Source: Lachnospiraceae bacterium
GTDB taxonomy: Bacteria > Bacillota > Clostridia > Lachnospirales > Lachnospiraceae
Reading direction: 5' to 3'
DNA: 64,000 bases
Assembly: GCA_017517305.1 (NCBI GenBank)
Contig: JAFWZV010000016.1
Location: 18,200-82,199, forward strand
A model generated the notes under the pieces. The model saw only the letters and a program-made list of their open reading frames with translations, did not search any database and was not told the origin of the DNA. The position numbers were made by a program, and so were the translations under genes. Shown here piece by piece: positions 1,333 through 16,320 of this stretch; the stretch's first letter is position 1, and the number at the start of each line of letters is the position of its first letter.

Positions 1333-1333
1333 T

Positions 1334-2221
1334 ATGTTCGAAAATTGCTCAATTATGATTATAGGAACAAACCACACAGTAGATGAAATATATAGATTGG
1401 ATATGAATTCAGATACACAGAATGAAATAGTGGAAACTTTTGCAAAAGGAATACAAGAATTGACAGGAGAAAAAACTAGAATTTCATTTGACGGTAGTTA
1501 CAAGCCAAATGATGATGAATATCTAGTTATTGAAAATTTTAGATTGTCTGATGAAATTAAGGATGCAATAAGGAATCCAATAGGCGTACAAGGATTTAGA
1601 AAAAAGAATGATGATTATCCAGAAATAAAGGCAATATTTGTGGGTGAAAGAGAAGAAAATTCAAATGGAGAACAGTTTAAAGTGGCTTTTCAGCGCTTTA
1701 AGAAAGATCAGTATATTTCTACGGCATGGTATAACTTGTTTTTTGATAGAGATACTTTTTTACAGGAAAAAAGATTTGGAATTAGTATCTCAGATGTAGT
1801 AGATTGTTTCGTTGTTGATAATGAATTATGTTTTTCGTCATTCCATTTTACAAGGCAGATTTTTGACTTAAATGATTATTATCGTTCTGCAACAGATAAA
1901 GAGGTACATACATTCACCCAGAATTCAAAATTGATGTTAGAGGATGCGGATGCTTTTGAAGGAATGGCTAATACCATTATAAGAAGAAAAATTGCATTAA
2001 TTAATGATTCAAAAGTATTAGATAAATTTTCGGCTAATGAAATAAAAAGAGAGGCAAAAGCAATTGATATAGATATTGATGTAAAGGACAAAAAAATAGT
2101 GATTCCAAATGATAAGGAGAAGGTGAAAATTATCTTGGGATTTTTGGATGAAGAAGCATTTAAAGGTCCGTTTTCAAAACACACATATTTGGCAAATTCG
2201 AAGAGAAAGCTTAATAGATAA
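1334..2221 (+). CDS. kwaB: DUF4868-family protein, probable Kiwa effector KwaB
   Basis: 295 residues. The C-terminal two thirds show the features I associate with DUF4868: a LFFDRDTF segment near 140, a VVDCFVVDNELCF strand pair near 160, a long helical middle, and a final FKGPFSKHTYLANSKRK segment. KwaB is the cytoplasmic DNA-binding effector of Kiwa. The length fits the family, and it follows the membrane gene with no gap (AGGAGGTAGGATA precedes the ATG). Base composition is as AT-rich as the rest of the island. If the family call is wrong, it is still clearly the partner of the upstream membrane protein. Confidence 0.68.
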   Translation: MFENCSIMIIGTNHTVDEIYRLDMNSDTQNEIVETFAKGIQELTGEKTRISFDGSYKPNDDEYLVIENFRLSDEIKDAIRNPIGVQGFRKKNDDYPEIKAIFVGEREENSNGEQFKVAFQRFKKDQYISTAWYNLFFDRDTFLQEKRFGISISDVVDCFVVDNELCFSSFHFTRQIFDLNDYYRSATDKEVHTFTQNSKLMLEDADAFEGMANTIIRRKIALINDSKVLDKFSANEIKREAKAIDIDIDVKDKKIVIPNDKEKVKIILGFLDEEAFKGPFSKHTYLANSKRKLNR

Positions 2222-2291
2222 CAACAAATAATATATGTTGTGGAATGATATCTTTGAGGAGAAACACGTTAAAAAGTAATATTAGGAGAAA

Positions 2292-2678
2292 ATGAATGAT
2301 AGAATCAGTGTATAAATATATAGTTCAAATAAAAATCCTCATGGAGATTGGGGAGAATTCAGAAATCCTACAAATAGAAATCTAATAAAGGGTAAAACTT
2401 ACGTTCCAATACCAGTAAAATATGCTAGGAAGTATAATATCCAACGAGGAGATGTTTTTGTTGCTCATTTTTTTGATGGATATCCTTCGATTCAAATTAA
2501 GGCATCAGGAAATGGTCCGTATGAAGGGGGGATTCAATATGCTAAGCAATTTGTAGGCATAGGAAAAGGTGCATGCAAAGCATTCACACCATGGTATGAA
2601 TCTTGTGGCATAGAAGTAGGCGATTACGTTGAAGTGGAGTTTCTTTCGAGTAATGAGGTAATGTTTTCAAAATTATAG
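2292..2678 (+). pseudogene. Small unknown gene interrupted by an in-frame stop at codon 8
   Basis: An ATG at 2292 behind a good ribosome site (TTAGGAG) opens a frame that stops at TAA 2313-2315 after MNDRISV, then stays open for another 120 codons to TAG 2676-2678. The continuation looks like a real compact protein (NPHGDWGEF, YARKYNIQRGDVF, FVGIGKGACKAF, CGIEVGDYVEVEF) and no other ATG, GTG or TTG starts it in frame. The simplest reading is one nonsense mutation in a gene of about 128 codons. The fold is not recognised; the double 'GDVF/GDYVEVEF' pattern suggests a small beta-barrel. A sequencing error is possible. Confidence 0.6.
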
Positions 2679-2683
2679 TGATG

Positions 2684-2724
2684 AAGCGTTGTCTGTTTTA
2701 TAATAGTACAATGCTTTTATTTTA
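2684..2724 (+). terminator. Probable Rho-independent terminator
   Basis: AAGCGTTGT pairs with ACAATGCTT (one G-U pair) around a 15-nt loop and is followed by TTATTTT. It separates the Kiwa-side transcripts from the restriction-modification genes. Confidence 0.45.
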
Positions 2725-2755
2725 TAACTAAACGAACATATGTGCGAAGAAGGTA

Positions 2756-2783
2756 TTGACGAAAGTATAATATATGGTAGAAT
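2756..2783 (+). promoter_or_regulatory. Promoter of the restriction endonuclease gene
   Basis: TTGACG at 2756-2761 and TAGAAT at 2778-2783 are separated by 16 bp and lie about 45 bp upstream of the endonuclease start, where no other gene intervenes. Confidence 0.5.
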
Positions 2784-2830
2784 TAATATGTGGTATAAAG
2801 AAGGGGATCAAATGATTAAGGAGGAATGAG

Positions 2831-4060
2831 ATGTTTTATAAAAAACAACCAGAATCAAACAGACAAAACTATAAAAAGATGCTAACCATAATAGGTCAAT
2901 TATCACACTTATTCTCTGAAAACGATGCCCCTTACTTGGCGTACAGAGTTCATGAAAATGTATTCTGTAAATACTTTCATGCTGAAAATCTAGCTAGAAC
3001 GGATTGTTCTGCTGATGCGAAGAAAGACACTATTGGTATTGGCTTAAAAACATGGGTTGGAAATGACGATCAAAAAGTTGCAGAATTCGGAAAGTTAAAG
3101 AAATTTTATACAGATTTAACTGGACTTGAGTTAGTGAAAAAAATTTCGGAGTATAGAAATGAGAGAATTCGAGTCACAAAAAATCTTCATGGAATTACAG
3201 ATATGATATACCATGTTGTAAAAAGAATTCCTGGTGCTATGCAGATAATGGAGTGTACTTTTGATTATATTAATATCGATAATATAAAATTGATTCCTGA
3301 CAGGGGGAATGAAAACAATACATATTTCACAGATGGTAAACATACTTATCATTTTAGTGTATCAAAGAATACTTTGTATATGATTTTTGATGACTTAGAG
3401 TTGATGGATACTATAAATGTAAATATTCTTGATGATCCATACACTTTGTTAGAGAATGCTACAAAAGAACATGTAAATACAATGTTGGGATTTAATAAAA
3501 TAGATGCTGATGGTGGAGAAACATATTTCGAAGGGGATATTTTTACAGATAATATTACAATTGATCAAGTTATTCAAAACGAGAAAAAGGAACAACTTTG
3601 TTTGCCGCTTTATTCAGTTAAGAAGGGTGTGAAATTTGTTGGAGAAAAAAGTGGCTTGAATCAATGGAATGCAGGTGGTCGTAAGAGGAATATTAATGAA
3701 ATTTACATACCATATCAAAAGGTAGATAGAGATAGAAAATCAGATTTCTTCCCTCCTAGAGATACAGCTTTTACTTTGCATATGCCAGATGGTTCAGAGA
3801 TATCAGCTAAAGTTTGCCAAGAAGCTGACAAGAATAATCCTGTAATTGGAAAGTCAATTATGAGTAACCCAAATAAAGTGTTAGGTAAGTGGCTACTTAG
3901 AGATGTGTTTGAGTTAGAAGAAGGAACTGTATTAACCTATGAAATGCTTGAAAAGTTTGGTATAGATAGTGTTGTTTTTACTAAGAATTCAGATTTGGAT
4001 TACTCCATTGATTTTGCAGAAATAGGCACTTACGAGAAATTTTATAGTATAGAAGAATAG
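2831..4060 (+). CDS. Type II restriction endonuclease with NgoFVII-type C-terminal DNA-binding domain
   Basis: 409 residues. Residues about 275-405 match the B3-like C-terminal domain of NgoFVII-type enzymes: GLNQWNAGGRKRN, then FFPPRDTAFTLHMPDG, then SNPNKVLGKWLLRDVF and a final GIDSVVF. The N-terminal half lacks the HxK motif of phospholipase-D-type nucleases such as BfiI; instead it has a conserved-looking AENLARTDCSADAKKD...GIGLKTW stretch near residues 51-75 that could supply a PD-(D/E)xK-type metal site (inference). It lies about 100 bp upstream of a C5-methyltransferase, as in a type II system. NgoFVII itself is reported to recognise GCSGC. AAGGAGGAATGAG precedes the ATG. Confidence 0.75.
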   Translation: MFYKKQPESNRQNYKKMLTIIGQLSHLFSENDAPYLAYRVHENVFCKYFHAENLARTDCSADAKKDTIGIGLKTWVGNDDQKVAEFGKLKKFYTDLTGLELVKKISEYRNERIRVTKNLHGITDMIYHVVKRIPGAMQIMECTFDYINIDNIKLIPDRGNENNTYFTDGKHTYHFSVSKNTLYMIFDDLELMDTINVNILDDPYTLLENATKEHVNTMLGFNKIDADGGETYFEGDIFTDNITIDQVIQNEKKEQLCLPLYSVKKGVKFVGEKSGLNQWNAGGRKRNINEIYIPYQKVDRDRKSDFFPPRDTAFTLHMPDGSEISAKVCQEADKNNPVIGKSIMSNPNKVLGKWLLRDVFELEEGTVLTYEMLEKFGIDSVVFTKNSDLDYSIDFAEIGTYEKFYSIEE

Positions 4061-4093
4061 TTTTAATAGGCTGATAATATCAGCCTATTAAAA
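4061..4093. repeat. Perfect 33-bp inverted repeat after the endonuclease gene
   Basis: TTTTAATAGGCTGATA pairs perfectly with TATCAGCCTATTAAAA around one central base, directly after the endonuclease stop codon. It could work as a bidirectional terminator (A-run before, T-run after the GC part) or as an operator between the restriction and methylation genes. Confidence 0.7.
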
Positions 4094-4106
4094 TTGAAAA
4101 TAATAA

Positions 4107-4135
4107 TTGCGGCGCGCCGCGATTTTTGGTACAAT
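4107..4135 (+). promoter_or_regulatory. Methyltransferase promoter overlapped by two GCSGC sites
   Basis: A -35 TTGCGG (4107-4112) and a -10 TACAAT (4130-4135) are spaced by 17 bp. A 12-bp perfect GC palindrome, GCGGCGCGCCGC (4109-4120), overlaps the -35 and the spacer and contains GCGGC and GCCGC, both matching GCSGC, the reported NgoFVII target. A second inverted repeat, TGGTA-N6-TACCA at 4127-4142, overlaps the -10. Promoter function is inferred from spacing only. Confidence 0.5.
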
Positions 4136-4163
4136 TTTACCATAGTATTTTAGGAGGATTTTT

Positions 4164-5135
4164 ATGTTAAAGTGTGCATCTTTTTTTGCTGGTGTTGGAG
4201 GAATAGATAAGGGATTTGAACATAATGAGTTGTTTAAAGTAGTATATGCTAATGAGTTTGACCCGTATCCAGTGAAAACATACGAATTAAATTCAAAGTT
4301 GAAAGTGGATTGTAGAGATATTAAAGAAGTACAGCCAGATGAAATTCCTGATTTTGATGTGATGTTGGCAGGTTTTCCGTGTCAGGCTTTTAGCGTCGCT
4401 GGATACCGAAAAGGTTTTGAGGATGAAAAGGGAAGGGGTACTTTGTTTTTCGAGTTGGTTAGAATTATAGAAGCGAAAGAACCGGAAATTGTATTCCTTG
4501 AAAATGTAAAGAATTTAGTAGGACATGATAATGGAAATACATTTAGGGTAATAAATGAATGTTTAGAGCAGAACGGTTATAAGGTATATCCTATGGTTCT
4601 TAATGCTATGGAATACGGAAACATACCCCAGAATAGAGAAAGAATATATTTGGTGTGTTTTAAGGATGAAAGAGTATATCAAAATTTCCGCCCACTTATG
4701 CCAATACCACTCAAGAAGAAACTGTCGGATATTATAGATTTTAAAACAAAAGTAGATGATAAGTATTATTATACAGAGGGAAAGTATAAAGGGGATATAT
4801 ATGAGCAATTAGTAGCTGCGATGGATGATGAGAATGCGGTGTATCAGTGGCGAAGAAAATATGTAAGAAAAAATAAGAGTGGAGTAGTTCCAACCTTAAC
4901 AGCTAACCAAGGTGAGGGCGGTCATAATGTATGTTTGATTAAAACAAAACATGGAATCAGAAAAATGACTCCTCATGAATGTTTCAATACGCAAGGATTT
5001 TCTAAGAAATTTAAATTGCCTAAAGATATGAGTGATGCGCGTCTTTACAAGCAGGCTGGTAATTCTGTTTGTGTGTCTGTTATTGAGAGATTGGCTGATA
5101 AGATAGCTGAAGCGTATAAAGCGGTAAATGCATAG
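4164..5135 (+). CDS. DNA (cytosine-5-)-methyltransferase
   Basis: 323 residues with all the main C5-methyltransferase motifs in order: FFAGVGGIDKG (motif I, residues 7-17), GFPCQAFSVAG with catalytic Cys73 (IV), ENV at 113-115 (VI), QNRERIYLV at about 156-164 (VIII), a target-recognition region at about 170-285, and GNSVCVSVI at about 299 (X). It transfers methyl groups from SAM to cytosine and should protect host DNA from the neighbouring endonuclease. It has its own promoter and ribosome site (TAGGAGG). There is no N-terminal helix-turn-helix extension, so any autoregulation would have to use the catalytic domain or methylation itself. Confidence 0.93.
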   Translation: MLKCASFFAGVGGIDKGFEHNELFKVVYANEFDPYPVKTYELNSKLKVDCRDIKEVQPDEIPDFDVMLAGFPCQAFSVAGYRKGFEDEKGRGTLFFELVRIIEAKEPEIVFLENVKNLVGHDNGNTFRVINECLEQNGYKVYPMVLNAMEYGNIPQNRERIYLVCFKDERVYQNFRPLMPIPLKKKLSDIIDFKTKVDDKYYYTEGKYKGDIYEQLVAAMDDENAVYQWRRKYVRKNKSGVVPTLTANQGEGGHNVCLIKTKHGIRKMTPHECFNTQGFSKKFKLPKDMSDARLYKQAGNSVCVSVIERLADKIAEAYKAVNA

Positions 5136-5173
5136 AAATATATAGCACATATTTGTATTTTAGAGGATGAAAA

Positions 5174-5770
5174 ATGAGCAAAGGCAGAAAGAAAAATAAG
5201 AATAAGAAAAAGATTTCAAATAGACAAGTAGAGGAAAAAAGTGTATTAAGTGTTTCGATAGAGGAGTTCGCTTCAATTCAAGAAGAAGCGTATTATAATG
5301 CGTTGAAAAAACTGGAGTTGGATAGAAAAAACGAAAAAACGCAAGAAGTTAAAAAAGAATCCGAGCTAGAAAAACAGACTTTAAAAGATAAAATAAGATT
5401 TATATTTTATATGCTTGTGTTGCCTGGTAAAGCGCAAGAGAATCTTGGGTTAGATGTTAGAGTATATGATATATTACTAAGTATATTTGTGTCTGGTGTA
5501 TTTAAGCTGATTGGACATGTTATTAGAATTATTTCTATCGTTCTTACAATTGCCCTTTCGATAGATGCATTTAATAAAGATGTTAATTTGTTTGTAATAA
5601 TAAATGTTATTCTTGTAGGAATTGTATTAATGCTTATGGGGAGTTTGTTTATACTTGCAGGTGATGAATTTGAAAAACAAGATGACAAAAATTGTTTATA
5701 TGCCTATTCTGCTAGCTTTATTGCATTAATCACTTTGATAGTTAGTGTTATTGGTATGACTTGTGATTGA
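5174..5770 (+). CDS. Unknown membrane protein with lysine-rich N-terminus
   Basis: 198 residues. The first 20 are almost all Lys, Asn and Arg, followed by a charged helical stretch (about 25-75) that may form a coiled coil, then four hydrophobic segments at about 78-92, 98-130, 138-160 and 173-195. The gene follows the methyltransferase by 38 bp with AGAGGATG before the ATG, so it may be co-transcribed with it. No family is recognised. Its place between a restriction-modification pair and a GmrSD-like nuclease makes a defence-linked role possible but unproven. Confidence 0.6.
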   Translation: MSKGRKKNKNKKKISNRQVEEKSVLSVSIEEFASIQEEAYYNALKKLELDRKNEKTQEVKKESELEKQTLKDKIRFIFYMLVLPGKAQENLGLDVRVYDILLSIFVSGVFKLIGHVIRIISIVLTIALSIDAFNKDVNLFVIINVILVGIVLMLMGSLFILAGDEFEKQDDKNCLYAYSASFIALITLIVSVIGMTCD

Positions 5771-5843
5771 TACTATTCTATTACGCATATAGAGTGTTTT
5801 TGTTAGATGGATAACTAAATTGTTCGAGTGAGGAGGAAAACAA

Positions 5844-7925
5844 ATGATAGGTAGCGCAAAACCTTTAGTTAAATTTTTGGATGGTTCAAGCACTAGATTT
5901 ATAATACCTGTTTATCAAAGAAACTATGACTGGAAGATTGTGAATTGTACACAACTGTTTGATGATTTGATAAAGGTTGTAAAGACACCGAATAGAGATT
6001 CGCATTTCTTTGGCAGTGTGGTGTCTGTAGCTAATATACAGGGTGCTTCAAGTGAAATGTTGATTATAGATGGTCAACAAAGAATAACAACAATATCCTT
6101 ATTATTTTTGGCACTGGTTAATTTGTTGAAAGATGGAAGGGTTGAATCTGAAAAAACATATTTAGCAGATCAAATTCAGAATACATATCTTATTGATCCT
6201 TATGAACCAGAAGAGAAAAAAGTTAAGTTAAAGCCAATCAAAGATGATCAGGATGCTTTCTTGAAATTATTTGGGGACAAGGAAGAATATAATATGACTT
6301 CTAATGTTACTCAAAATTATATGTATTTTTATAACAGAATTCAGAAAGGTGAATTGACTCCAGAAGAAATTTTTAATGCCATATGTTCTCTTGTTATTAT
6401 AGATATTTCTCTTGACCCGACTAAGGATGATGCTCAATTGATATTTGAAAGCTTAAATTCAACTGGATTGGACTTGAGTGAAGGTGATAAAATAAGAAAT
6501 TTCATACTAATGGGTTTGGATTCTGATAAACAGGAAAGGTATTATAATAAATATTGGAATAAGATTGAAAAAGATACGGATTACCAGGTTAGTGATTATG
6601 TAAGGCATTATCTGACTATTTCTTTGGGTAGAACACCAGCGATTAAAGAGGTATATAGTTGCTTTAAAAGTTATGTAGAGAAAAATAAGTTTGAAACTGA
6701 AGAATTACTTCTTAATATGGTTAAATATGCCAAGTATTATAAAGAGATTAAGAATTCAAGTACTAATGTGTACAAAGCAAATATTGTGTTATCTAGACTA
6801 AACGTATTAGACATGAGTGTTTCTATTCCGTACTTGATGGGATTATGGGAATATAGAGAGAACGTTGGCATGATAGATACAGAATTTGTAGAAGTATTAA
6901 CAGTCATAGAAACTTATATATTTAGAAGAATGATATGTGGTGTTCCTACCAATGCGTTAAATAAGATTTTTGCAATGTTGCATAAAGACTGTATTAGATA
7001 CAAAAAAGATAATGATCAATATGTAGAAGTATTAAAGTATCTTTTGAATAGCAAAGTTGTTTCTGGACGTATGCCAAAAGATAGTGAGTTCTTAAGGAGT
7101 ATAGAGGAAAAGAATATATACTCTATGCAAGCTAAGAATAAAATGTATTTATTTGATCGTCTTGAAAATGAAGATTCAGTTGAACATACAAATGTAATTC
7201 AAATGATGCAAGATGGTGTGTACACTATAGAGCATATTATGCCACAAACATTATCTAATGCTTGGAAAAAAGATTTGGGAACAAACTATTTGGAAATACA
7301 TGACAAGTGGATAAATAGATTAGCAAATCTAACTTTAACAGGATATAATTCTCAATATAGTAATAGATCGTTTTTGGAAAAAAGAGATACCGAGAAAGGA
7401 TTCAAAGATAGCCATTTACATATAAATGCAGAAATTGCAAAATGTGAAAAATGGACAGAGGATGAAATAATCCAGAGAAATAATATGTTAAAAGGTAAGT
7501 TCCTTGTATTGTGGTCGTACCCAACGAGTTCTTATGAACCAGAGAAGGTATTAAATGAGATGCATACCTTGGATGAGGATTATGACTTTAAAGGAAAGTA
7601 TTTTGTCTCATATTCTTTTTTAGATACACCATATTCAGCCAATAGTTGGTCTGATATGTATCAGCAAGTTGTAAAATTCTTGTTTGAGTTGGATGCAACT
7701 ATTATTTATAAACTAGTAACTGATAATACTGGTTTAGGAATACATTTTTCTGATAAAGAGGAGAAAGGTTTTGTTGAAATCGAAGACAAGGTATTCTTGT
7801 ATGTTGCAACATCTACCATGTCAAAAATTAGTGCGTTGAAAAAATTGTTTTCAATGTATGAGTTAGATGGAAGTGAACTTGTATTAGAAATCCAGAGTGA
7901 AGAAACAAATGAAGAAAATGACTAG
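5844..7925 (+). CDS. GmrSD-like DUF262/DUF1524 nuclease
   Basis: 693 residues. The N-terminal DUF262 domain carries IPVYQRNYDW near residue 20 and the nucleotide-binding DGQQR at 76-80. The DUF1524 domain carries an HNH-like site, IEHIMPQ (His464), followed by NRLANLTLT and YSNRSFLEKR. This is the layout of fused GmrS/GmrD type IV restriction enzymes, which use NTP hydrolysis to cut modified phage DNA. About 130 residues after DUF1524 form a further domain (NSWSDMYQQVVKFLFELD...) that I do not recognise. GAGGAGG precedes the ATG and a strong terminator follows. Confidence 0.85.
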   Translation: MIGSAKPLVKFLDGSSTRFIIPVYQRNYDWKIVNCTQLFDDLIKVVKTPNRDSHFFGSVVSVANIQGASSEMLIIDGQQRITTISLLFLALVNLLKDGRVESEKTYLADQIQNTYLIDPYEPEEKKVKLKPIKDDQDAFLKLFGDKEEYNMTSNVTQNYMYFYNRIQKGELTPEEIFNAICSLVIIDISLDPTKDDAQLIFESLNSTGLDLSEGDKIRNFILMGLDSDKQERYYNKYWNKIEKDTDYQVSDYVRHYLTISLGRTPAIKEVYSCFKSYVEKNKFETEELLLNMVKYAKYYKEIKNSSTNVYKANIVLSRLNVLDMSVSIPYLMGLWEYRENVGMIDTEFVEVLTVIETYIFRRMICGVPTNALNKIFAMLHKDCIRYKKDNDQYVEVLKYLLNSKVVSGRMPKDSEFLRSIEEKNIYSMQAKNKMYLFDRLENEDSVEHTNVIQMMQDGVYTIEHIMPQTLSNAWKKDLGTNYLEIHDKWINRLANLTLTGYNSQYSNRSFLEKRDTEKGFKDSHLHINAEIAKCEKWTEDEIIQRNNMLKGKFLVLWSYPTSSYEPEKVLNEMHTLDEDYDFKGKYFVSYSFLDTPYSANSWSDMYQQVVKFLFELDATIIYKLVTDNTGLGIHFSDKEEKGFVEIEDKVFLYVATSTMSKISALKKLFSMYELDGSELVLEIQSEETNEEND

Positions 7926-7931
7926 TATTAG

Positions 7932-7964
7932 AAAGGTGACTTGGCCCCCAAGCCACCTTTTTTT
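7932..7964 (+). terminator. Rho-independent terminator after the GmrSD-like gene
   Basis: AAGGTGACTTGG pairs with CCAAGCCACCTT (one mismatch) around a short C-rich loop and is followed by seven T residues. Confidence 0.85.
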
Positions 7965-7968
7965 GGTG

Positions 7969-8034
7969 CACTTACGTAAATACAACTATCACTTATGCAA
8001 ACCCTATTTACAATTGTAGCCAAAAAGATATTAT
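7969..8034 (+). promoter_or_regulatory. LytTR-type repeat pair and promoter of the two-component system
   Basis: CACTTACG at 7969 and CACTTATG at 7990 are direct repeats 21 bp apart, the two-helical-turn spacing used by LytTR regulators. TTTACA (8007-8012) and TATTAT (8029-8034) with a 16-bp spacer follow. The second repeat starts 17 bp before the -35, exactly as in the copy at 10272. A likely autoregulated promoter. Confidence 0.6.
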
Positions 8035-8038
8035 GAAC

Positions 8039-8050
8039 TTGTCCGGACAA
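8039..8050. repeat. 12-bp palindrome TTGTCCGGACAA
   Basis: A perfect palindrome lies just downstream of the -10 at 8029-8034, at about the expected transcription start. It may be a repressor site; nothing else in the window repeats it. Confidence 0.35.
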
Positions 8051-8151
8051 TACATATAGTATATACGGAAAGGACAAGATTGTGTGTGGTTTATGGTTTG
8101 ACCTCTTTGTTTATTTATTAGGATATTAAGAGGTATAGAACAAATTATTCT

Positions 8152-8208
8152 TCCGTAATTAGTTTATATTTGATATATTTAAGTAAAGTATAATGCTAAT
8201 TACGGAGG
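8152..8208 (+). promoter_or_regulatory. Inverted repeat that could hide the kinase ribosome binding site
   Basis: TCCGTAATTAG (8152-8162) is perfectly complementary to CTAATTACGGA (8196-8206). The right arm includes the first three bases of the GGAGG Shine-Dalgarno (8204-8208) of the sensor kinase. The 33-nt loop is AT-rich. Confidence 0.45.
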
Positions 8209-8214
8209 ATGAAA

Positions 8215-9543
8215 ATGACAGTTCTATTTTATATTATAACTGATATATTCCATATTATATCCATATTTTTATTATGTACGGTATTGTTCAAATTTAAGTT
8301 ACAGAATAGAGTGAAAAATAGGATATATAAACTTATTATCACAACAGTTATACTGATATTGTCTATAAGTATATATTTGATGAATAACTTAATAGCAAAA
8401 ACAATATTATCTACATTAGTAATTGTTGTCATACTATGTTTTAGTTATGATGAAAAGAAATTAAATATTGTTGTATCTGGTTTGTGGATAATGACAATAA
8501 TAGCAATGCTTGAAACTATGTCTATCATTCTTCTTGAATTGATAGGGAAATTGGTGGGATATAACAATGATGTTTTATTGAGATTATGTGTATCTGTGTT
8601 TGATTTCTTTTTAATTGTAATTTTTGGGAAGATATATAACAAGCAATACAGACGAAGCATAAGTTCGATTGGTATATGTAACATATTAGCATTTACTGCA
8701 TTGACGTGTATTGATACAATTATAGTGATGTTTTTAGCAGTTATTACACGTGTGGAAAAGCAAGTAACCAACCAGATGGTATTTTTCATCGCATTCATCC
8801 TAGTCATACTTGGCCTATTCCTCCAGCTAGGCGCTGTAATTCTAATTCTAGTTCAACGAAACGTCTACAAAGAGGGTCAACAAATCACCGAAAAGTACCT
8901 AGAAGAACAAAAGGGTCACTATCAATACCTGGAACAGCGTGAAATCGAAACCAAGAAGTTTAGACATGACCTAAGAAGCCATATGGGGTTGTTATCAGTA
9001 TTGGTCAAAGAACACAAATATGACGAATTCGATAAGTATGTTGATAAAATTAATATTAAGATTGATAGCTTTGGTAATAATGTCACAGTTCAAAATGGTA
9101 TAGTTGATGCCGTCATTAATAAGTATTATTCAGAGGCCACTGCTAATAATGTTAATATGGAGGTAAAAGGCCGTTTCCCTAGCGATTGTGAGATTGATGC
9201 ATACGATTTATGTACAATATTTTCAAACGTTTTGAGCAATGCAATAGAAGCGACCGTAGAGTCAACGAATAAATGGATGAGTGTTGATTGCAGATACACT
9301 GATGATAACATAATAGTTGTGGTGAAGAATTCATTTGATAACACAAATCAAGTAAGAAATGGTAAGGCGAATACCCATAAGAAGGATATCAATAATCACG
9401 GGTTTGGTCTTGAGAATGTGAAGGAAAGCATCAAAAAATATAACGGTATATGGGACATTGATATACAAGAGGATGTATATTCTATAACAATATCATTTAA
9501 TTATGATAGACTGGAAGGAAATTATGAAGATAGCGATAATTGA
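8215..9543 (+). CDS. AgrC-like sensor histidine kinase (GHKL family)
   Basis: 442 residues from ATG 8215, preferred over the ATG at 8209 because GGAGG (8204-8208) abuts the earlier one but sits 6 nt before this one. The first 215 residues are mostly membrane segments (about six), then a linker helix, the phospho-acceptor box KKFRHDLRSHMG (His251), the N-box IFSNVLSNAIEA and a G-box NHGFGLENVKES. AgrC-type kinases sense exported peptides at the membrane and phosphorylate a LytTR regulator; that regulator gene overlaps this one by 20 bp. No agrB/agrD lies near, so the signal comes from elsewhere or is not a peptide. Confidence 0.88.
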   Translation: MTVLFYIITDIFHIISIFLLCTVLFKFKLQNRVKNRIYKLIITTVILILSISIYLMNNLIAKTILSTLVIVVILCFSYDEKKLNIVVSGLWIMTIIAMLETMSIILLELIGKLVGYNNDVLLRLCVSVFDFFLIVIFGKIYNKQYRRSISSIGICNILAFTALTCIDTIIVMFLAVITRVEKQVTNQMVFFIAFILVILGLFLQLGAVILILVQRNVYKEGQQITEKYLEEQKGHYQYLEQREIETKKFRHDLRSHMGLLSVLVKEHKYDEFDKYVDKINIKIDSFGNNVTVQNGIVDAVINKYYSEATANNVNMEVKGRFPSDCEIDAYDLCTIFSNVLSNAIEATVESTNKWMSVDCRYTDDNIIVVVKNSFDNTNQVRNGKANTHKKDINNHGFGLENVKESIKKYNGIWDIDIQEDVYSITISFNYDRLEGNYEDSDN

Positions 9544-10225
9544 TGATGAACAACATTGGAGATATTCGGCAGAACAGATTGTAAGCAAATATTACGCTAA
9601 TGTTGAGGTAAATATAGACATCTATGAAGATGGAGAGCAATACTTAAAGAGCAAGGTAAAATATGACATATCATTTGTGGATATAGAGATGCCTGGTGTG
9701 GATGGGTTTACCACCATAGAGAGGGCGAGAGAATATAATCCGGAAGGGATATTTATTATATTAACCACTCACACTGAGATGAGTCGTAAAGGTTATCTGG
9801 TTAATGCATTTAGATACATTGACAAGCTCAAGCTGGTGGATGAAATGATTGAAGCCATGAGGTCCGCAGAGATACTGTTGGGACGTAACAGAAAGATTGA
9901 AGTAAACATCACAGATGTTGGAATACGTAAATTAGTATTGAAAGATATAATTTATATCGAAACAGAAAAGCATCATATTCTGGTGCACACAAATGAAAAA
10001 ATTATACAATGTAATAATACTATGAAAGAAATGGAAGCAATACTTGACGCAAGTTGGTTCTTCAGATGCCACAATTCATACATTGTTAATCTGGATGAAA
10101 TATCCAGGGTTGATAAGAAAATTATTTATTTAAAAAATGGAGATAACATCGACATAGCACAGAGAAAGGCTGCAGAATTTAATAGAGCTTACTTAAAGAG
10201 ACAATATGAATGTGGGAATGCATAG
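9524..10225 (+). CDS. LytTR-family response regulator (AgrA-like)
   Basis: 233 residues from ATG 9524 (GGAAGGAAA just upstream), overlapping the kinase. Receiver domain at 1-120 with acidic pair D7/D8, phospho-acceptor Asp53 in FVDIEMPG and a Lys in FRYIDKLKL; LytTR DNA-binding domain at about 130-230 (LKDIIYIETEKHHILVHT, FFRCHNSYIVNLDEI). It should bind paired 9-bp direct repeats about 21 bp apart, and two such pairs flank the operon (7969 and 10272). Expected job: activate its own operon and the XRE-helicase transcript. Confidence 0.9.
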   Translation: MKIAIIDDEQHWRYSAEQIVSKYYANVEVNIDIYEDGEQYLKSKVKYDISFVDIEMPGVDGFTTIERAREYNPEGIFIILTTHTEMSRKGYLVNAFRYIDKLKLVDEMIEAMRSAEILLGRNRKIEVNITDVGIRKLVLKDIIYIETEKHHILVHTNEKIIQCNNTMKEMEAILDASWFFRCHNSYIVNLDEISRVDKKIIYLKNGDNIDIAQRKAAEFNRAYLKRQYECGNA

Positions 10226-10227
10226 AA

Positions 10228-10257
10228 AGTCACCGGGAATGAACGGTGGCTTTTTTG
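10228..10257 (+). terminator. Terminator after the response regulator
   Basis: AGTCACCG pairs with CGGTGGCT around a short loop and is followed by TTTTTTG. It separates the two-component operon from the next LytTR-type promoter. Confidence 0.8.
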
Positions 10258-10271
10258 TTGTCAAAATACAT

Positions 10272-10338
10272 CACTTACGCAAAACGAACTATCACTTATG
10301 CAAGGGTAGTTGAGTGAAACCCTAGAAGTAGATAGAAT
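10272..10338 (+). promoter_or_regulatory. Second LytTR-type repeat pair and promoter, upstream of the XRE gene
   Basis: CACTTACG at 10272 and CACTTATG at 10293, 21 bp apart, match the pair at 7969/7990 base for base including the flanking AACTAT and GCAA. TTGAGT (10310-10315), a 17-bp spacer and TAGAAT (10333-10338) form the promoter, with the same 17-bp offset from the second repeat to the -35. Confidence 0.65.
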
Positions 10339-10387
10339 GAATAATAAGTCGAAATGGGTAGTTTTATGTATTGTGGGAGAAGAGTAT

Positions 10388-10699
10388 ATGTTTGATAAAA
10401 AGGCGTGCGGACGCAGGTTAAAGCAGCTTAGAATGGATAAAAATATGCATCAGGATGAAGTTGCTACTGAAATGGGCATTTCTGCAGATACAGTTAGCAA
10501 ATTGGAGCAAGGGAAAAGATCTCCATCAGCTACTATGGTATGTATTTTAGCAAATTACTATAAGACAACAGCTGATTATATTTTATTTGGCGTTGCAAGG
10601 GATGGTTGCGCAGGGAATGAGTGGATAAGTGAGTTATCGGTAGATAAGAGGAGAAGGGTTGAGAGGATGATTGAGGAGTTGAAGGGGTTGGTGGAGTAG
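10388..10699 (+). CDS. XRE-family helix-turn-helix regulator
   Basis: 103 residues from ATG 10388, chosen because GGGAGAAGAG lies 3 nt upstream and the HTH fold starts right after it; upstream in-frame TTG/ATG codons lack a ribosome site. The domain (RLKQLRMDKNMHQDEVATEMG, then ISADTVSKLEQGKRSPS) is a classical Cro/C1-type DNA-binding motif at about residues 8-65. It lies directly downstream of a LytTR-type promoter and upstream of the helicase gene, so it probably tunes the helicase-ATPase module. A 15-bp palindrome just after its stop codon is a possible operator. Confidence 0.85.
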   Translation: MFDKKACGRRLKQLRMDKNMHQDEVATEMGISADTVSKLEQGKRSPSATMVCILANYYKTTADYILFGVARDGCAGNEWISELSVDKRRRVERMIEELKGLVE

Positions 10700-10708
10700 G
10701 GGGGTGTA

Positions 10709-10723
10709 GTATTTATTAAATAC
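10709..10723. promoter_or_regulatory. 15-bp palindrome between XRE and helicase genes
   Basis: GTATTTATTAAATAC is a perfect palindrome around a central T, 48 bp upstream of the helicase start codon. It could be the operator of the XRE regulator or of the S24 domain. It does not resemble the GAAC-N4-GTTC SOS box of Gram-positive LexA. Confidence 0.4.
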
Positions 10724-10770
10724 AAATAATTATTTTAGGCATATTAATAAATCTATAGGTGGTGAATTAT

Positions 10771-13149
10771 ATGGAACAAGCTTTGAGAATAAATTTAAGC
10801 GTTGAGCAGTTAAGGATAGTAAATAGCAAGTCTGTTGGCAGTAGTTTAATAAAAGGTGTGGCGGGAAGTGGAAAAACAACTGTAGCGCTTTTTAAGTTAG
10901 CTAATTTGTTGAGAAATGGATTGGATGGAGAAAAAGTATTAGTGGTGACCTATAATAAAACACTAGTAAGATACATGGAGTTTTTATGTGAAGAGTATGG
11001 AATATCACTTGATTCAAATAATGTTAATATAAGTACCATAGATAGTGTTATTGCAAAACTGTATAATTCCTGTAATGGTAACACTCCAAATGTAGATACG
11101 AAACAACAAAGGGAGATGATGAACTATGCTATTTGGAAAACTGCAGAAAAATTTCCTAATTGTCAAATTATTAATAGTAAAAATTTAAATTTTTTGATAG
11201 AAGAAATACTTTGGATAAAGTGCTGTAGATATATTGATAAAAATGAATATATGAATATTGATAGATTAGGCAGAAATAGTATAGGTGAAAATACATTAAG
11301 ACTTGCTAAGAATTCAGAAAGTCGTGAAGCGATTTTTGAATTGTTTTTACAATATGAAAATTTGCTAAAGAGAAATGGATTAACTGACTATTATTCAAAA
11401 GCATTAAAAACATTGGAACAAATAAAAAGTGATTACATAACACCACAACGATATAGGTATATTATTGTTGATGAAAGTCAAGACTTATCAAGAGTTCAAT
11501 TAGAAATAGTTAAGGAATTATATGATGAAGCACCAGACAGTAATATAATTTTTATAACAGATGTAGCACAGAGTATATATTACCAGTCGTGGTTGTCAAA
11601 ACAAAGTTTTAAAAGTATCGGGTTTGATATGTCAGGTAGGTCAAATATATTATCCAAGAACTATCGAACTACTAAACAAATTGCAAAAGCCTCATATTCA
11701 TTGATAAATAATGATAGTGAGCTAAAATCCAGTAATGACTTTGTAGAACCAGAATTGATTAATAGAGATGGGTTTAAACCTCGATATAGACATTTTTGCA
11801 ACCAAATTGAGGAATTTGATTATGTTTTTCATGAAATAAAAAAGTGTACTAATACACATAATTTAAGAGATATTGTTATTGTTGCAAGAAATAAAGGCTA
11901 TCTAAATAATATGAAACAATATCTTTTAAAAAATAAAGTAGATGCAGAGGTTTTTACTGATAGAAAAAACGATAACGAGGATTTCTTTACATCTGATAGA
12001 GTAAAATTAATAACTATGCATTCTATCAAAGGTCTTGAGGCAAAAGTTGTATTTATTGTTGGTTTGAATAAAGACATAATTCCTTTGGAGTGTGACAGAG
12101 TAGATGCAGAGAGGAAACTGCTCTATGTAGGAATGACTAGAGCAAAGGATATTCTATATTTAACTAGCAATGGAGAAGAATCACAATTTATACATGAGAT
12201 TGATAGTAATATGCTTCAACTGTCAGATGATGAAAAGGAACAATTTCATTGTATATCGATAGATGATTTTTTGTTCTTGGACAAGGTGAAAGATGTTAAT
12301 CAAGTTGAAGAGCAGGTTCGTCAATGGTACCTAAAAGTGTTACAAAACAATTATGGATATTCCGTTGAGCAAATCAGAATTGAGGATGTTATAAAAGATG
12401 GAAGTAAAACCTATTATGTAGATATTGCTGTATATGATGATAATACTTGTGAAAATCCATTTATTTATGTTGAAACAAAATCACCAGGTGAAAATTTACA
12501 ACATGCGTTGAAGCAATTACAAAGTTACAATGAGAAAGGTATCTCTGCCAAGTATTTAGTTGTTACTGATGGAAATATAATATTGGTCAGACGATTTGTT
12601 GATGGAAGGTATATTGCTTGTAATGATATACCTTTAGAAAGATATAAGTTTTGTACTAGCTATAAATATCGTGATATAAAAAATAACGAAGAGTATGAGT
12701 ATGTGGTGGACTCTGACGGGAAAATATATATAAAAAACAGAACACAAAAAATAAATAGTACATTTAATCTATTTATTATTGGTGTGGTAACAGCGGGTAG
12801 GTTACAGTACGCATATAATAATTATTTGGGGACGGAAATTGTTCCAGTAAGAAATGTAGCTGGCTATGAAAAATTCTTTTTGCTTCAAGTTTCTGGAGAT
12901 AGTATGCTAGAGTTCGGAATTGATGATGGTGACACGCTAGTAGTTGATGGTAACCAGTCTGCTCAATATGGAGATATAATTGTAGCCGGTAGCAAAATGT
13001 TAAACGAGGCCACTGTAAAGCAATGTTTGCCATATAGTGATGAATATATAATGCTTCATCCGGGAAATAAAAAATATGAAGATACGTATATTAATGTTAA
13101 TGACTTTTTTGTTAATGGTGTTGTTGTGGGTGTGATAAAAAAGTATTAA
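10771..13149 (+). CDS. SF1 helicase - HsdR_N-like nuclease - LexA/S24 autoprotease fusion
   Basis: 792 residues from ATG 10771 (GGTGGTG 7 nt upstream). Residues 1-480 are a UvrD/Rep-like helicase: Walker A GVAGSGKTT (29-37), DESQD (Asp234), FITDVAQSIY, SIKGLEAKVVFIVG and YVGMTRAKD (452-460). Residues about 530-640 resemble HsdR_N: VDIAVYD with Asp551, then YVETK with Glu568 and Lys570, then a QL..Y helix, a PD-(D/E)xK site. Residues about 660-792 are a complete S24 peptidase: TAG scissile pair Ala675-Gly676, GDSM with Ser711, ATVK with Lys750. The A-G to Ser to Lys spacing is nearly that of LexA. Self-cleavage would free the helicase-nuclease. The next gene follows within 30 bp. Confidence 0.85.
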   Translation: MEQALRINLSVEQLRIVNSKSVGSSLIKGVAGSGKTTVALFKLANLLRNGLDGEKVLVVTYNKTLVRYMEFLCEEYGISLDSNNVNISTIDSVIAKLYNSCNGNTPNVDTKQQREMMNYAIWKTAEKFPNCQIINSKNLNFLIEEILWIKCCRYIDKNEYMNIDRLGRNSIGENTLRLAKNSESREAIFELFLQYENLLKRNGLTDYYSKALKTLEQIKSDYITPQRYRYIIVDESQDLSRVQLEIVKELYDEAPDSNIIFITDVAQSIYYQSWLSKQSFKSIGFDMSGRSNILSKNYRTTKQIAKASYSLINNDSELKSSNDFVEPELINRDGFKPRYRHFCNQIEEFDYVFHEIKKCTNTHNLRDIVIVARNKGYLNNMKQYLLKNKVDAEVFTDRKNDNEDFFTSDRVKLITMHSIKGLEAKVVFIVGLNKDIIPLECDRVDAERKLLYVGMTRAKDILYLTSNGEESQFIHEIDSNMLQLSDDEKEQFHCISIDDFLFLDKVKDVNQVEEQVRQWYLKVLQNNYGYSVEQIRIEDVIKDGSKTYYVDIAVYDDNTCENPFIYVETKSPGENLQHALKQLQSYNEKGISAKYLVVTDGNIILVRRFVDGRYIACNDIPLERYKFCTSYKYRDIKNNEEYEYVVDSDGKIYIKNRTQKINSTFNLFIIGVVTAGRLQYAYNNYLGTEIVPVRNVAGYEKFFLLQVSGDSMLEFGIDDGDTLVVDGNQSAQYGDIIVAGSKMLNEATVKQCLPYSDEYIMLHPGNKKYEDTYINVNDFFVNGVVVGVIKKY

Positions 13150-13178
13150 TTAAGTAATTTAATTATTAGGAGGAACGT

Positions 13179-15527
13179 ATGATAGCAAGTGTAAAAAAAA
13201 TTAAAGATATAGGCGTCTTTAAAGATTACGAACAAAGAAAGACTGGTTTGGTGAGGGATTTTAGAAAGAAAAACTATATATATGGGTTGAATACATATGG
13301 TAAATCTACATTGTGTGATATCTTAAAAGATATTTCAGATGATTCGGTTGAGCGAATAAAAAAAAGACTCACAATACCTAATGGAGTCAATCAAGATGTT
13401 GTTTTGAGTTTGACAGATGGTGTAGGCGTTGTGAAATTAAGTGGAGAAACTTGGTTGAATAACAAATTAAAAGATAAAATAATGGTATTTGATACAGAGT
13501 TTGTGATAAATAATGTTTCTGATGGGACTAAATTAATTGAGGATAGAGCAACCAAGGAAAACTTTACTGAATTTATATTGGGTGATAAAGGTGTTGCCTT
13601 GGCGCAGAAAATAGAAGAACTTAAAAGAGAGGTCAAGGAGGAAAAAGGAAAACTTCAATCGATGACACCCTATTCAAAAAGAGGGGAGAGTGATGCGACA
13701 ATTAAGAAATATGTTAAGTTACAAGTTCAAGAAGAACTTGAGGATTTAGAAGGTTTAAAGGAAGAAATATTAAAGCAAATTAATACTAATAATCAGAGAG
13801 AAAAAAATAGAGCAGATATTAAAGGATATAAAGCTATTACTGTACCTAGTTGTGCTAAGCTAATATCACTAATCAAAGAAATAGAGGGAGTTAAATGTAT
13901 TTTGGAGACAAATTATTCTATGTCTGCCAATACGCTTGTTACTTTTGAGAAACATATAAGAAATGTATGTCATGGAATAAAAGGGGTACAAGAGTGGATT
14001 AGCCAGGGGATCCATTTAATGGATGGTGATACAATATGCCCATTTTGTGGACAGGAAATTGAAGATAAATCCTTGATTAATGCATTTTCAGAGTATATGA
14101 GTGAAGAGTATCAGTTGTTTAAAAAGAATTTGAAGCAAAAAATTCTTGCGGTGAATATTAATTGGGATGTTTTATCTGTAGCTAATGATGTTATGGAAAT
14201 AAAAAAGCAAATTCAAAATGCGGAGAAAATATTCGGGGAAGGTGTTTCATTATGGAATAATGATATAGATAAACTTTATCAAGAAATGATTTTGAAGGAA
14301 AAGAAGTATTGTACTGAGGTTAATGAGTTTAGAGAAAAGGTTAATTTAGCTTTAAAAAATAAAGTCGTATTATGCAATGTGGAAATTGCTCTTGATACAT
14401 CGATTTTAGAGGACATTAAAAGATATTATGATGAAAAATTAGAGTCTATATGTGAGATTGTAAATAGAATTAACGAAGTGATTTATGGCATACAGGCGGA
14501 TATTGATAGTAGCTCTTTTGAGAACAAAAATGCTGAGTTGTTAAAGAAATTGCAAGTCTATGAGCTGAAAATAGAAAGATTAAATGAAAGTAATGATTGT
14601 GAAAAATGGAAAAATCAGTATGCGTTAGTCGAGGACAAGAATAGACAAGTGAAAGAAATGTCAGAAATGCTAGAATTGGATCAAAAAGAATACTTGGATA
14701 TTTATTTTAATACAATTGATGAAATTTTTAGACGATTTGGAGCGCATAAATTCAAAATTGAGAGAGGGGATTTTAGTAATAAAGGGTATAAAAAGATATT
14801 TGGTGTTAAAATCTCATTTAAGAATGTGATATTATCTGAAACAGGTATGACGGAAAGGATTTTTAGTGAATCGGACAAAAGAGCTCTTGCCCTTGCTGTT
14901 TTTATGGCAAAACTTGAATGTATGCCTGAGGATGAAAAGAAAAACATTATTTTAGTGCTCGATGATCCAATTACAAGTTTTGATGATAATAGGATGAGAA
15001 ATGTTGTGAATAATTTGATTAATGTTTCAGATGCAGTAGAACAAACATTTATTTTTTCACATCATTTTATGTTTTCTAAAATGTTCAGTGATAGGTATTC
15101 TGATCAGATTAATTTTTACAAGATAGATCGTATGACGGGGGAGTCTAATGGATTATTTGAAATGAATTCTAGAGAAGAGTTTATGACAGGATTTGATAAA
15201 GCTTATTTACGAGTTGCAAAATTTAACAGTTCAGAAACAAAAGATATGTCAGAAAATGAGTTGAGAATTTTTTTAGAGGAATATTTGAAAACAGTTTTTG
15301 CTAAACAGTATGCTGAACTTAATTTGGAAAAGGAAAAATTAGGAGTTCGAATTGATGAATTAGCAAATCTTGGTTTGATAACGCCTGATGTAAAAACAAA
15401 ATTGCATTATTTCCGAAACGAATTGAATTCGGGCTCTCATACCTTTCAAGATAATACTATTGAAGATGATAGGAACTTTTCTATTGATTTTGTCACATAT
15501 TTATTTGATAATGTTCATATGGGATAG
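13179..15527 (+). CDS. AAA_13 zinc-hook ATPase, RloC/PrrC-like candidate effector
   Basis: 782 residues. Walker A GLNTYGKST (36-44), a long coiled coil interrupted by a zinc-hook CPFCGQ (Cys287, Cys290), ABC signature FSESDKRALAL (about 562-572), Walker B LVLDDPITSFD (Asp595/Asp596) and a switch His in FSHHFMF. The C-terminal ~100 residues carry R696-x3-E700 (LRIFLEEYL) and, 54 residues on, His754 in RNELNSGSH; this resembles the Arg-x3-Glu...His arrangement of the tRNA anticodon nucleases PrrC/RloC (inference; the spacing differs). RloC is known to couple zinc-hook ATPase sensing of DNA damage to tRNA cleavage. It is the evident partner of the helicase fusion, 29 bp upstream, with TTAGGAGG before the ATG. 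Confidence 0.8.
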   Translation: MIASVKKIKDIGVFKDYEQRKTGLVRDFRKKNYIYGLNTYGKSTLCDILKDISDDSVERIKKRLTIPNGVNQDVVLSLTDGVGVVKLSGETWLNNKLKDKIMVFDTEFVINNVSDGTKLIEDRATKENFTEFILGDKGVALAQKIEELKREVKEEKGKLQSMTPYSKRGESDATIKKYVKLQVQEELEDLEGLKEEILKQINTNNQREKNRADIKGYKAITVPSCAKLISLIKEIEGVKCILETNYSMSANTLVTFEKHIRNVCHGIKGVQEWISQGIHLMDGDTICPFCGQEIEDKSLINAFSEYMSEEYQLFKKNLKQKILAVNINWDVLSVANDVMEIKKQIQNAEKIFGEGVSLWNNDIDKLYQEMILKEKKYCTEVNEFREKVNLALKNKVVLCNVEIALDTSILEDIKRYYDEKLESICEIVNRINEVIYGIQADIDSSSFENKNAELLKKLQVYELKIERLNESNDCEKWKNQYALVEDKNRQVKEMSEMLELDQKEYLDIYFNTIDEIFRRFGAHKFKIERGDFSNKGYKKIFGVKISFKNVILSETGMTERIFSESDKRALALAVFMAKLECMPEDEKKNIILVLDDPITSFDDNRMRNVVNNLINVSDAVEQTFIFSHHFMFSKMFSDRYSDQINFYKIDRMTGESNGLFEMNSREEFMTGFDKAYLRVAKFNSSETKDMSENELRIFLEEYLKTVFAKQYAELNLEKEKLGVRIDELANLGLITPDVKTKLHYFRNELNSGSHTFQDNTIEDDRNFSIDFVTYLFDNVHMG

Positions 15528-15708
15528 AAAAATACAAGAAAGATATATATTATTCTGAAACGAGAAAGGACATTAGAATAAATTAGTACATCGTATCCAA
15601 AAGAATTCAAGTTTATGGATTGAAGGTGAGAATTATTATTTGTGGTGAAATGAGATTTGATTTTTCATAGCATATAAGGGCGTAATAAGTATGATTTGTT
15701 GGGATTTT

Positions 15709-15737
15709 TTTAAACAGCATAGCTATAATGCTATAAT
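15709..15737 (+). promoter_or_regulatory. Promoter of the ASCH leader transcript
   Basis: TTTAAA (15709-15714), a 17-bp spacer and a consensus TATAAT (15732-15737). The expected start lies at about 15744, right at the foot of a long hairpin. Confidence 0.55.
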
Positions 15738-15747
15738 AGAGAATAAA

Positions 15748-15861
15748 AAGATACAGTAAGTAAGCTTTGGCTACCCTGGTAGTTAAGTCCTTACTTATGT
15801 ATCTTAATCTTAAGAAAGTATACCTTGTTGTTTTTATTGTGTCAAGAATAAAAACAACAAG
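15748..15861 (+). ncRNA. Structured leader RNA (two strong hairpins) upstream of the ASCH gene
   Basis: Hairpin 1: AAGATACAGTAAGTAAG (15748-15764) pairs with CTTACTTATGTATCTT (15790-15805) with one bulged base; inside it CTAC/GTAG can form a small apical stem. Hairpin 2: CTTGTTGTTTTTATT (15824-15838) pairs perfectly with AATAAAAACAACAAG (15847-15861). A good promoter sits just upstream, and the ASCH start is about 80 nt downstream. It could be a cis-regulatory leader or an independent small RNA; no known riboswitch class is recognised. Together with the spacer from 15528, this accounts for the 412-bp gene-free stretch. Confidence 0.5.
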
Positions 15862-15939
15862 ATAGATAATACAAATTGGTAAGACCACCATATTTGTTTT
15901 TGGAGTAACAGCAAAAAAATATTCACAAGGAGCATTTCC

Positions 15940-16320
15940 ATGTCCACAATCCTACTATCCATCAACCCAGTCCACGTTAACAACATACTAACTGGGAAAA
16001 AACAATATGAATTCAGAAAAAAAGCCTGCAAGCGAAAAGTAGATAAAATTATTATCTATTCCACAACACCTGTTATGAAGGTTGTTGGTGAAGCTGAAGT
16101 GGAGCAGGTGCTGATTGACAAGCCTAGCAAGGTTTGGAATATTACCAAGAGTAAATCAGGCATAGACAAAAACTTCTTTGATGCATACTACAAGGATCGT
16201 GATGAAGCTGTTGCATATAAGCTTATCAATGTTATAAAATACAGAGAACCAAGAGAATTAAAGGACTACGGCATAAAGTGTGCTCCACAGTCATATCAGT
16301 ATATTGAAGAGACTATATAA
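15940..16320 (+). CDS. ASCH (PUA-like) domain protein
   Basis: 126 residues. The start LLSINPVHVNNILTGKKQYEFRKK and the strand IIIYSTTPVMKVVGEAEVEQVL are typical of ASCH domains, a PUA-like beta barrel of about 110 residues that binds RNA or nucleotides; the domain fills the whole protein. ACAAGGAG precedes the ATG. It has its own promoter and a structured leader. The last codons form the left arm of its terminator. Its position next to the helicase/ATPase module suggests an RNA-related accessory role, but there is no direct evidence. Confidence 0.8.
   Translation: MSTILLSINPVHVNNILTGKKQYEFRKKACKRKVDKIIIYSTTPVMKVVGEAEVEQVLIDKPSKVWNITKSKSGIDKNFFDAYYKDRDEAVAYKLINVIKYREPRELKDYGIKCAPQSYQYIEETI

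Follow-up and report, generated by a model that had tools for sequence, protein, structure and literature searches.

Self-cleavage by S24 domains has been described for LexA, UmuD and CI and, to our knowledge, every characterised case controls either a repressor or UmuD, a subunit of DNA polymerase V (Pol V). In S24 proteins with DNA-binding partners, such as LexA and CI, the S24 domain is the dimerising part and function is lost on cleavage. The gene considered here, located at positions 10771-13149 (+ strand) of a 64,000-nucleotide stretch of Lachnospiraceae bacterium DNA (assembly GCA_017517305.1, contig JAFWZV010000016.1, positions 18,200 to 82,199; hereafter the window), encodes a single protein of 792 amino acids (aa) in which a superfamily 1 (SF1) helicase and an HSDR_N-type nuclease are followed by an S24 domain. 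Like LexA, UmuD and CI, this fusion has an S24 domain with Ala-Gly, Ser and Lys, whereas its N-terminal partner is a helicase-nuclease instead of a DNA-binding repressor or a Pol V subunit, and LexA boxes upstream of the fusion genes do not exceed chance. It is read here, with a probability of roughly 0.5, as a one-gene defence helicase-nuclease with a LexA-type self-cleaving switch.

Several described nucleases and helicases come close to this architecture. HsdR of type I restriction systems likewise combines an HSDR_N-type nuclease with an ATP-driven motor, and the D and E-x-K residues are found in the fusion as well. Proteolysis is a documented brake on HsdR, as it is degraded by ClpXP during damage repair, a process known as restriction alleviation (PMC12707154). 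In the fusion, in contrast, the motor, an SF1 UvrD-like helicase, comes before the nuclease, and the protease is built in; no HsdM or HsdS gene was found among the neighbours scanned in the window, the only locus scanned gene by gene for them. The SF1A helicases UvrD, PcrA and Rep share all signature motifs with the fusion, which is without an equivalent of PcrA 381-544 and adds the nuclease and the S24 domain. The best PADLOC matches of the helicase part are Gabija GajB and C3a187 (NERD plus UvrD). However, no GajA-type partner stands beside the fusion, the next gene being of the PDC-S06/AAA_13 type and the best GajA match (0.0024) falling in another open reading frame (ORF). In C3a187, the NERD nuclease precedes the helicase, whereas the fusion has no NERD match and its nuclease, of the HSDR_N_2 family, comes after the helicase.

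AbpAB and Nhi also bring a nuclease and a helicase together in defence, in AbpAB as two proteins. AbpAB is reported to be triggered by single-stranded DNA-binding protein or by DNA damage, and the abstract of the source mentions no S24 domain (PMC10732053). In Hachiman, AVAST and Canu, proteolysis likewise switches a defence nuclease, but there a separate metallo-beta-lactamase (MBL) nuclease is cut by a trypsin-like or caspase protease (PMC12799240; the terms LexA and S24 do not occur in that text). LexA, S24 and UvrD are not mentioned in PMC10853773 or PMC12839542 either. In full-text literature searches (titles and abstract starts among the matches listed; coverage light on subscription papers), no description of a helicase/nuclease/S24 architecture was found, in line with an earlier note on this DNA, made from the sequence alone, which knew of no named system with these three parts.

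The ORF starts with an ATG preceded by a plausible ribosome-binding site, an alternative GTG start lying 4 codons upstream and giving 796 aa. The helicase, of the SF1A (UvrD/PcrA-like) type, extends over residues 7-480 (10789..12210, +), as delineated by Pfam (UvrD_C 5.3e-26 and UvrD-helicase 2.3e-22, both above the curated cut-offs) and by alignment with PcrA. All the UvrD/PcrA SF1A motifs I to VI are present, including motif I or Walker A (GVAGSGKTT, residues 29-37, 10855..10881, +), motif II (VDESQDL, residues 233-239, 11467..11487, +) and motif VI (YVGMTRA, residues 452-458, 12124..12144, +). The alignment passes from residue 394 to 397 of the fusion while PcrA passes from 380 to 545, so that PcrA 381-544, a stretch which we take to be the 2B subdomain, has no counterpart. 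The HSDR_N_2 nuclease domain, of the PD-(D/E)XK type, occupies residues 513-621 (12307..12633, +; Pfam 6.9e-21, above the curated cut-off). Its predicted active-site residues are D551, E568, K570 and Q582-xxx-Y586 (12421..12528, +), the latter QxxxY pair being presumably the RecB/HsdR motif.

The third domain, a LexA-type Peptidase_S24, is matched at residues 669-786 (12775..13128, +; Pfam 7.3e-19, 68 bits against a cut-off of 23.3). The NCBIfam LexA model aligns residues 655-791 to LexA positions 69-201 (1.7e-20, below the cut-off of that model), and thus the cleavage-site region is included in the match. A sequence search of the Protein Data Bank (PDB) with the last 127 residues returned UmuD and LexA as solved relatives, with the entries 8gms and 8gmt among them, both of which presumably hold RecA filaments. 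The predicted scissile bond Ala675-Gly676 (12793..12798, +) leaves 117 residues C-terminal to A675; the predicted nucleophile Ser711 (12901..12903, +) and general base Lys750 (13018..13020, +) follow with spacings of 36 and 39 residues, near those of LexA. The N-terminus consists of the helicase and the nuclease, and the winged-helix DNA-binding domain of LexA is not present. The union of an SF1 helicase, an HsdR_N-like nuclease and an S24 domain in one protein, as proposed in the earlier note, is therefore borne out by three domains above curated cut-offs, and the translation places D551, E568, K570, Ala675-Gly676, Ser711 and Lys750 exactly where it had put them.

Conservation was followed over 30 distinct homologous sequences, a set from which a near-copy (L023), a copy reaching a contig end (L026), one with a frame break (L027) and one with an internal stop (L028) are left out; L030 is identical to L008, and L036 to L020. 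K35 of motif I, D234 and E235 of motif II, R299, R457 of motif VI, the nuclease residues D551, E568, K570, Q582 and Y586, and both S711 and K750 are found in 30/30. A675 and G676 are each kept in 29/30, with Ilyobacter polytropus as sole exception (Gly-Asp at the place of Ala-Gly), and the Ala and the Gly of the cut site rank 12 and 13 among 133 positions by conservation. The self-cleaving module claimed in the earlier note thus holds in homologues, so that the loss of Ser711, Lys750 or Ala-Gly among them, which that note had named as a refutation, did not refute it, and self-cleavage is strongly implied by the sequences.

Mean pairwise identity over the 30 sequences is 48% for the helicase, 44% for the nuclease and 43% for the S24 domain, as against 22% for the linker. 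Purifying selection acts on each of the three domains, the ratio of nonsynonymous to synonymous substitution rates (dN/dS) being 0.02-0.14 wherever computable (8 pairs x 3 domains; 4 of the 24 values, the helicase and S24 domains in 2 of the 8 pairs, could not be computed). The pairwise distance matrices of the three domains correlate at 0.86-0.89, above all 2000 permutations. Judged on these data, the motor, the nuclease, and the S24 dyad with its cut site are complete and inherited as one unit. A chance or mis-joined ORF is ruled out by the full-length homologues, the invariant residues and dN/dS.

In a phylogenetic tree, the fused S24 domains fall on one side of a branch (99/96) from 9 host LexA proteins, the 9 being those of 15 fetched LexA loci with a literal GDSM motif (the other 6 were dropped); the bootstrap of this tree is not fully settled, and P0001 and L008 stand on long branches. 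Repeated capture of host LexA finds no support in this tree. Some fused S24 domains score above the cut-off of the LexA model, and a separate LexA spanning nearly the whole model is present in 15 of the 17 carrier genomes searched. In two genomes (G348 and G594; L195, L196), nothing scores higher against the LexA model than the fused S24 domain, and no separate LexA over the cut-off was listed. The host LexA of the fusion's own genome (L190, the same gene as L004) has Cys-Gly instead of Ala-Gly at the expected scissile place (VSCGAP).

Homologues with the same domain order, which the earlier note had recommended to look for, were found, the order of helicase, nuclease and S24 being common to every complete copy tested. 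First scans of genome contigs and viral contigs with the single protein as query gave no match. Of 298 other genomes sampled in the family of the window (Lachnospiraceae), 5 contain a full-length match, each in a different genus. A phylum-wide sample gave 17 of 397 other genomes matching at 1e-60: 14 copies are complete, while the other three are, respectively, truncated at a contig end, interrupted by a frame break in the nuclease and broken by an internal stop. Named members come from Lachnospiraceae, Clostridium uliginosum, C. zeae, C. tagluense, Planococcus, Planomicrobium, a Pelotomaculum metagenome-assembled genome and Desulfosarcina alkanivorans, along with the Ilyobacter polytropus member (L006:10004-12433), annotated merely as 'S24 family peptidase'. 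The fusion is kept in at least three phyla, the third being presumably that of Desulfosarcina, and the spread of the full-length form is patchy.

The fusion genes are probably not in the canonical SOS regulon, as judged by LexA boxes (GAACN4GTTC) within 250 bases before the start codon and the first 20 of the gene. With one mismatch allowed, 2 boxes were found in 31 loci for 1.9 expected, none of them in the window, whereas the control lexA genes of carrier genomes gave 27 boxes for 0.83 expected, in 12 of 15 genes. Membership of the SOS regulon finds no support from the canonical LexA box, above-chance sites being absent. A response of the fusion to damage would therefore have to be post-translational, and the protein has probably already been made when the signal arrives.

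In the mechanism that we infer, which covers the catalytic activities, cleavage, the RecA trigger, dimerisation, the direction of switching and the defence role, the SF1 motor would load on single-stranded DNA or DNA ends and feed the HSDR_N nuclease, in an anti-phage or anti-plasmid activity. The C-terminal LexA-type domain would dimerise the protein and act as a self-cleaving switch, most likely triggered by a RecA-single-stranded DNA filament; the trigger need not be RecA, since IrvR is a LexA-like protein described as RecA-independent (PMC7101444). Ser711 and Lys750 would cut Ala675-Gly676 in cis, parting a 675-residue helicase-nuclease from a 117-residue C-terminal piece, and this cleavage would change the activity of the helicase-nuclease. 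The direction of the change is a matter of slight preference. If cleavage is an off-switch, a direction given somewhat less than even odds, damage to the host's own DNA would lead to the nuclease being shut off through loss of the dimerising domain, and the fusion would, by analogy, carry within itself the restriction alleviation that HsdR undergoes through ClpXP. The lean towards this direction comes from the precedents of LexA and CI and from the Ilyobacter copy, which keeps the enzyme without the cut site. If true, the SOS signal would be linked to a nuclease directly, without transcription. How cells keep restriction-type nucleases off their own damaged DNA is a long-standing question, which could here be tested in one protein.

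The opposite direction is nearly as probable as the off-switch, without reaching even odds either. The S24 domain would hold the helicase-nuclease inactive as a zymogen, until RecA filaments, formed upon infection, set off self-cleavage and so free an active enzyme that destroys DNA. A nuclease kept as a proenzyme until cut has a precedent in Hachiman and AVAST, although there the nuclease is encoded by a separate gene and the protease is trypsin-like or a caspase, not S24 (PMC12799240). The location of the window gene in a defence island and the lack of any sign of transcriptional SOS control, which fits a pre-made zymogen, are consistent with this direction. Three points run against it. The LexA and CI precedents go the opposite way. 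The Ilyobacter protein has lost Ala-Gly but retains the helicase, the nuclease and the Ser/Lys pair, and if activation depended on cutting, it could never be unlocked. Short paralogues, finally, retain the cut site though the nuclease is gone. Thus, as to the interpretation given in the earlier note, the architecture stands, and so does an S24 self-cleaving module that is complete and strongly selected, whereas the simple equation of release with activation meets contrary evidence in the Gly-Asp of Ilyobacter, in the short paralogues and in the LexA and CI precedents.

These short paralogues were first seen in genome G654, in which the full-length copy is accompanied, elsewhere on the same contig, by a protein of 495 aa (L210:334-1818, P0004) in which a complete S24 domain follows immediately on the first half of the helicase; by reading of the alignment, it is without motifs IV-VI and the nuclease. 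In the family of G654, 124 of 194 genomes match the short protein at 1e-30, and at least 99 of the 194 carry the short form as a one-frame match of nearly whole length, the open frames measuring 460-543 aa. Longer frames, of 811-855 aa, are found in at least 26 genomes, with a domain check for G654 only. Among the 30 best-scoring short-form loci (L211-L240, not a random draw; L211 is the locus of P0004 itself, hence 31 rows), no locus departs from Ala-Gly, Ser or Lys (30/30), and the lysine of Walker A is retained, whereas 19 loci lack the Walker B glutamate and 11 have it. Mean identity reaches 69% in the S24 domain against 45% in the N-terminal half. The short form thus keeps its cut site where helicase activity has probably been lost. 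Its genes (n=30) have no one-mismatch LexA box for 1.09 expected, and at 20 short-form loci, mostly on megabase contigs, neighbours are common only to small groups. The existence of this pseudo-helicase form suggests that LexA-type switches are used more widely than has been described. Tentatively, and at less than even odds, the fusion may represent a new class of S24 proteins in which self-cleavage controls an enzyme and not a repressor, here a restriction-like helicase-nuclease with a built-in RecA-triggered restriction alleviation, alongside widespread pseudo-helicase-LexA paralogues that would sense the same signal after losing their enzyme parts.

The defence role assigned to the helicase-nuclease draws on the genomic setting. 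The window gene sits in an AT-rich defence island (window 802-16320; guanine-cytosine content 30-35%) which also contains a Kiwa KwaB-like gene (1334-2221), a pair of type II restriction-modification genes (2831-5135), a GmrSD-type gene (5844-7925) and an ASCH gene matching PDC-M11B. An Xre-type helix-turn-helix (HTH) gene lies just upstream of the fusion (10388..10699, + strand, from an ATG, a TTG start at 10310 being also called; HTH_3 7.5e-14), and an AAA_13 ATPase gene, the PADLOC candidate PDC-S06, begins 30 bp after its stop (13179..15527, +; 2.3e-137). Both are local context; the HTH gene falls in no neighbour cluster common to another locus and is not part of the family. A multi-gene system including the HTH and AAA_13 neighbours was rejected, as clustering over 31 loci gives no constant partner. 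The commonest neighbour clusters reach 4 loci each: one containing AAA_13, one NERD-HRDC, one with ResIII helicases and one unannotated. Twenty neighbours picked by hand and annotated with Pfam, as examples only, include NERD-HRDC, GmrSD, ResIII helicases with nuclease domains, RecQ, DprA, AAA_13 and reverse transcriptase genes, and also SIMPL, zinc-transporter, EAL, dehydrogenase and flavodoxin-type genes.

At other loci, the defence link is modest. Around 30 other loci, the 102 proteins of 150 aa or more encoded no further than three genes away hit 109 PADLOC families (E<=1e-25), as against 2 families (mad3 in 5 proteins and C3a186 in 1) among 100 control proteins from 20 regions of 12 of the genomes, but this contrast is inflated, one reverse transcriptase alone matching 33 models. 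Counted per protein, in a sample of one neighbour in three, numbers 3 to 90 (30/102), 5/30 match PADLOC at 1e-25: a GmrSD/Orf5 protein, a retron-type reverse transcriptase, a JetD piece and two type IV-like helicases. Set against 5 or 6 of the 100 controls, this gives a one-sided Fisher p of 0.050 or 0.077, and of 0.002 against the sole non-mad3 control protein. The strong defence-island enrichment first read from 109 against 2 families was dropped after this per-protein check, and the modest contrast lowered the probability of a defence helicase-nuclease from 0.55 to 0.50.

The inflated family count and the borderline per-protein test belong to a series of observations that weigh against the defence reading. 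Neighbours vary from locus to locus, and those of the Ilyobacter gene are housekeeping genes. The Ilyobacter copy is without Ala-Gly, yet the helicase, nuclease, Ser and Lys residues checked are kept. No box precedes 3 of the 15 control lexA genes (two from the genus of L154/L155/L157 and one from the genome of L146), and the box test is uninformative for such hosts. In one genus, the matches listed include five genomes in which the hit lies 11-34 kb into contig 1, with 4 of these copies intact, and this could mean vertical inheritance and a host role.

Such a role is the substance of the next rival, in which the fusion is a host DNA-repair or DNA-damage factor not devoted to defence and the short pseudo-helicase paralogue is the general form. 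The occurrence of the short form in varied settings in half or more of the genomes sampled in one family argues for it, as do the repair-type genes among the hand-picked neighbours (RecQ, DprA, NERD-HRDC) and the merely modest enrichment in defence neighbours, on account of which its standing was raised slightly. The full-length form is patchy, in contrast, and the window copy lies among defence genes, so that a host factor stays an unlikely explanation. Less likely still is a tether, in which the S24 domain would mainly bind RecA filaments or another partner and bring the helicase-nuclease to single-stranded DNA, cleavage only limiting its lifetime: the Ser and Lys kept in Ilyobacter where Ala-Gly is lost and the PDB matches 8gms and 8gmt fit it, but the near-invariance and the high rank of Ala-Gly argue that cutting itself is selected.

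Two origins on mobile elements were also considered for the fusion gene. As a phage gene it was rejected, with no match covering 80% in phage records and only helicase pieces in viral contigs; as a plasmid gene too, the single plasmid match being on a 0.96-Mb replicon of Ilyobacter.

Some further observations concern relatives and neighbours of the fusion. L156 and L157 comprise a copy whose nuclease is interrupted by a frame break, so that its S24 domain lies on an overlapping ORF of its own, and a decayed copy from a genus with 4 intact copies among the listed matches. A NERD-HRDC nuclease-type gene adjoins the fusion at L032:6855-7964, L037:6915-7994, L038:6918-7988 and L150:10947-12374, assigned by Pfam for L032, L037 and L150 and by similarity for L038. 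The five next helicase relatives examined among those with long matches (L040, L042, L043, L044 and L048) have no nuclease or S24 match. Three of these loci (L040:7992-11719, L042:7992-11685 and L048:836-4392) hold an operon-like trio made of a UvrD-like helicase of about 495 aa, DarT (PF14487) and an ADP-ribosylglycohydrolase (PF03747), which occurs in Bacteroidales, Marinicella and Cloacimonadota. At L108:7305-9533, a NERD-UvrD helicase ORF is followed close by by an S24 ORF of 137 aa, apparently incomplete; this pair is possibly a two-gene analogue of the fusion or a chance arrangement, and is a weak lead. NERD-UvrD matches are found on plasmids as well.

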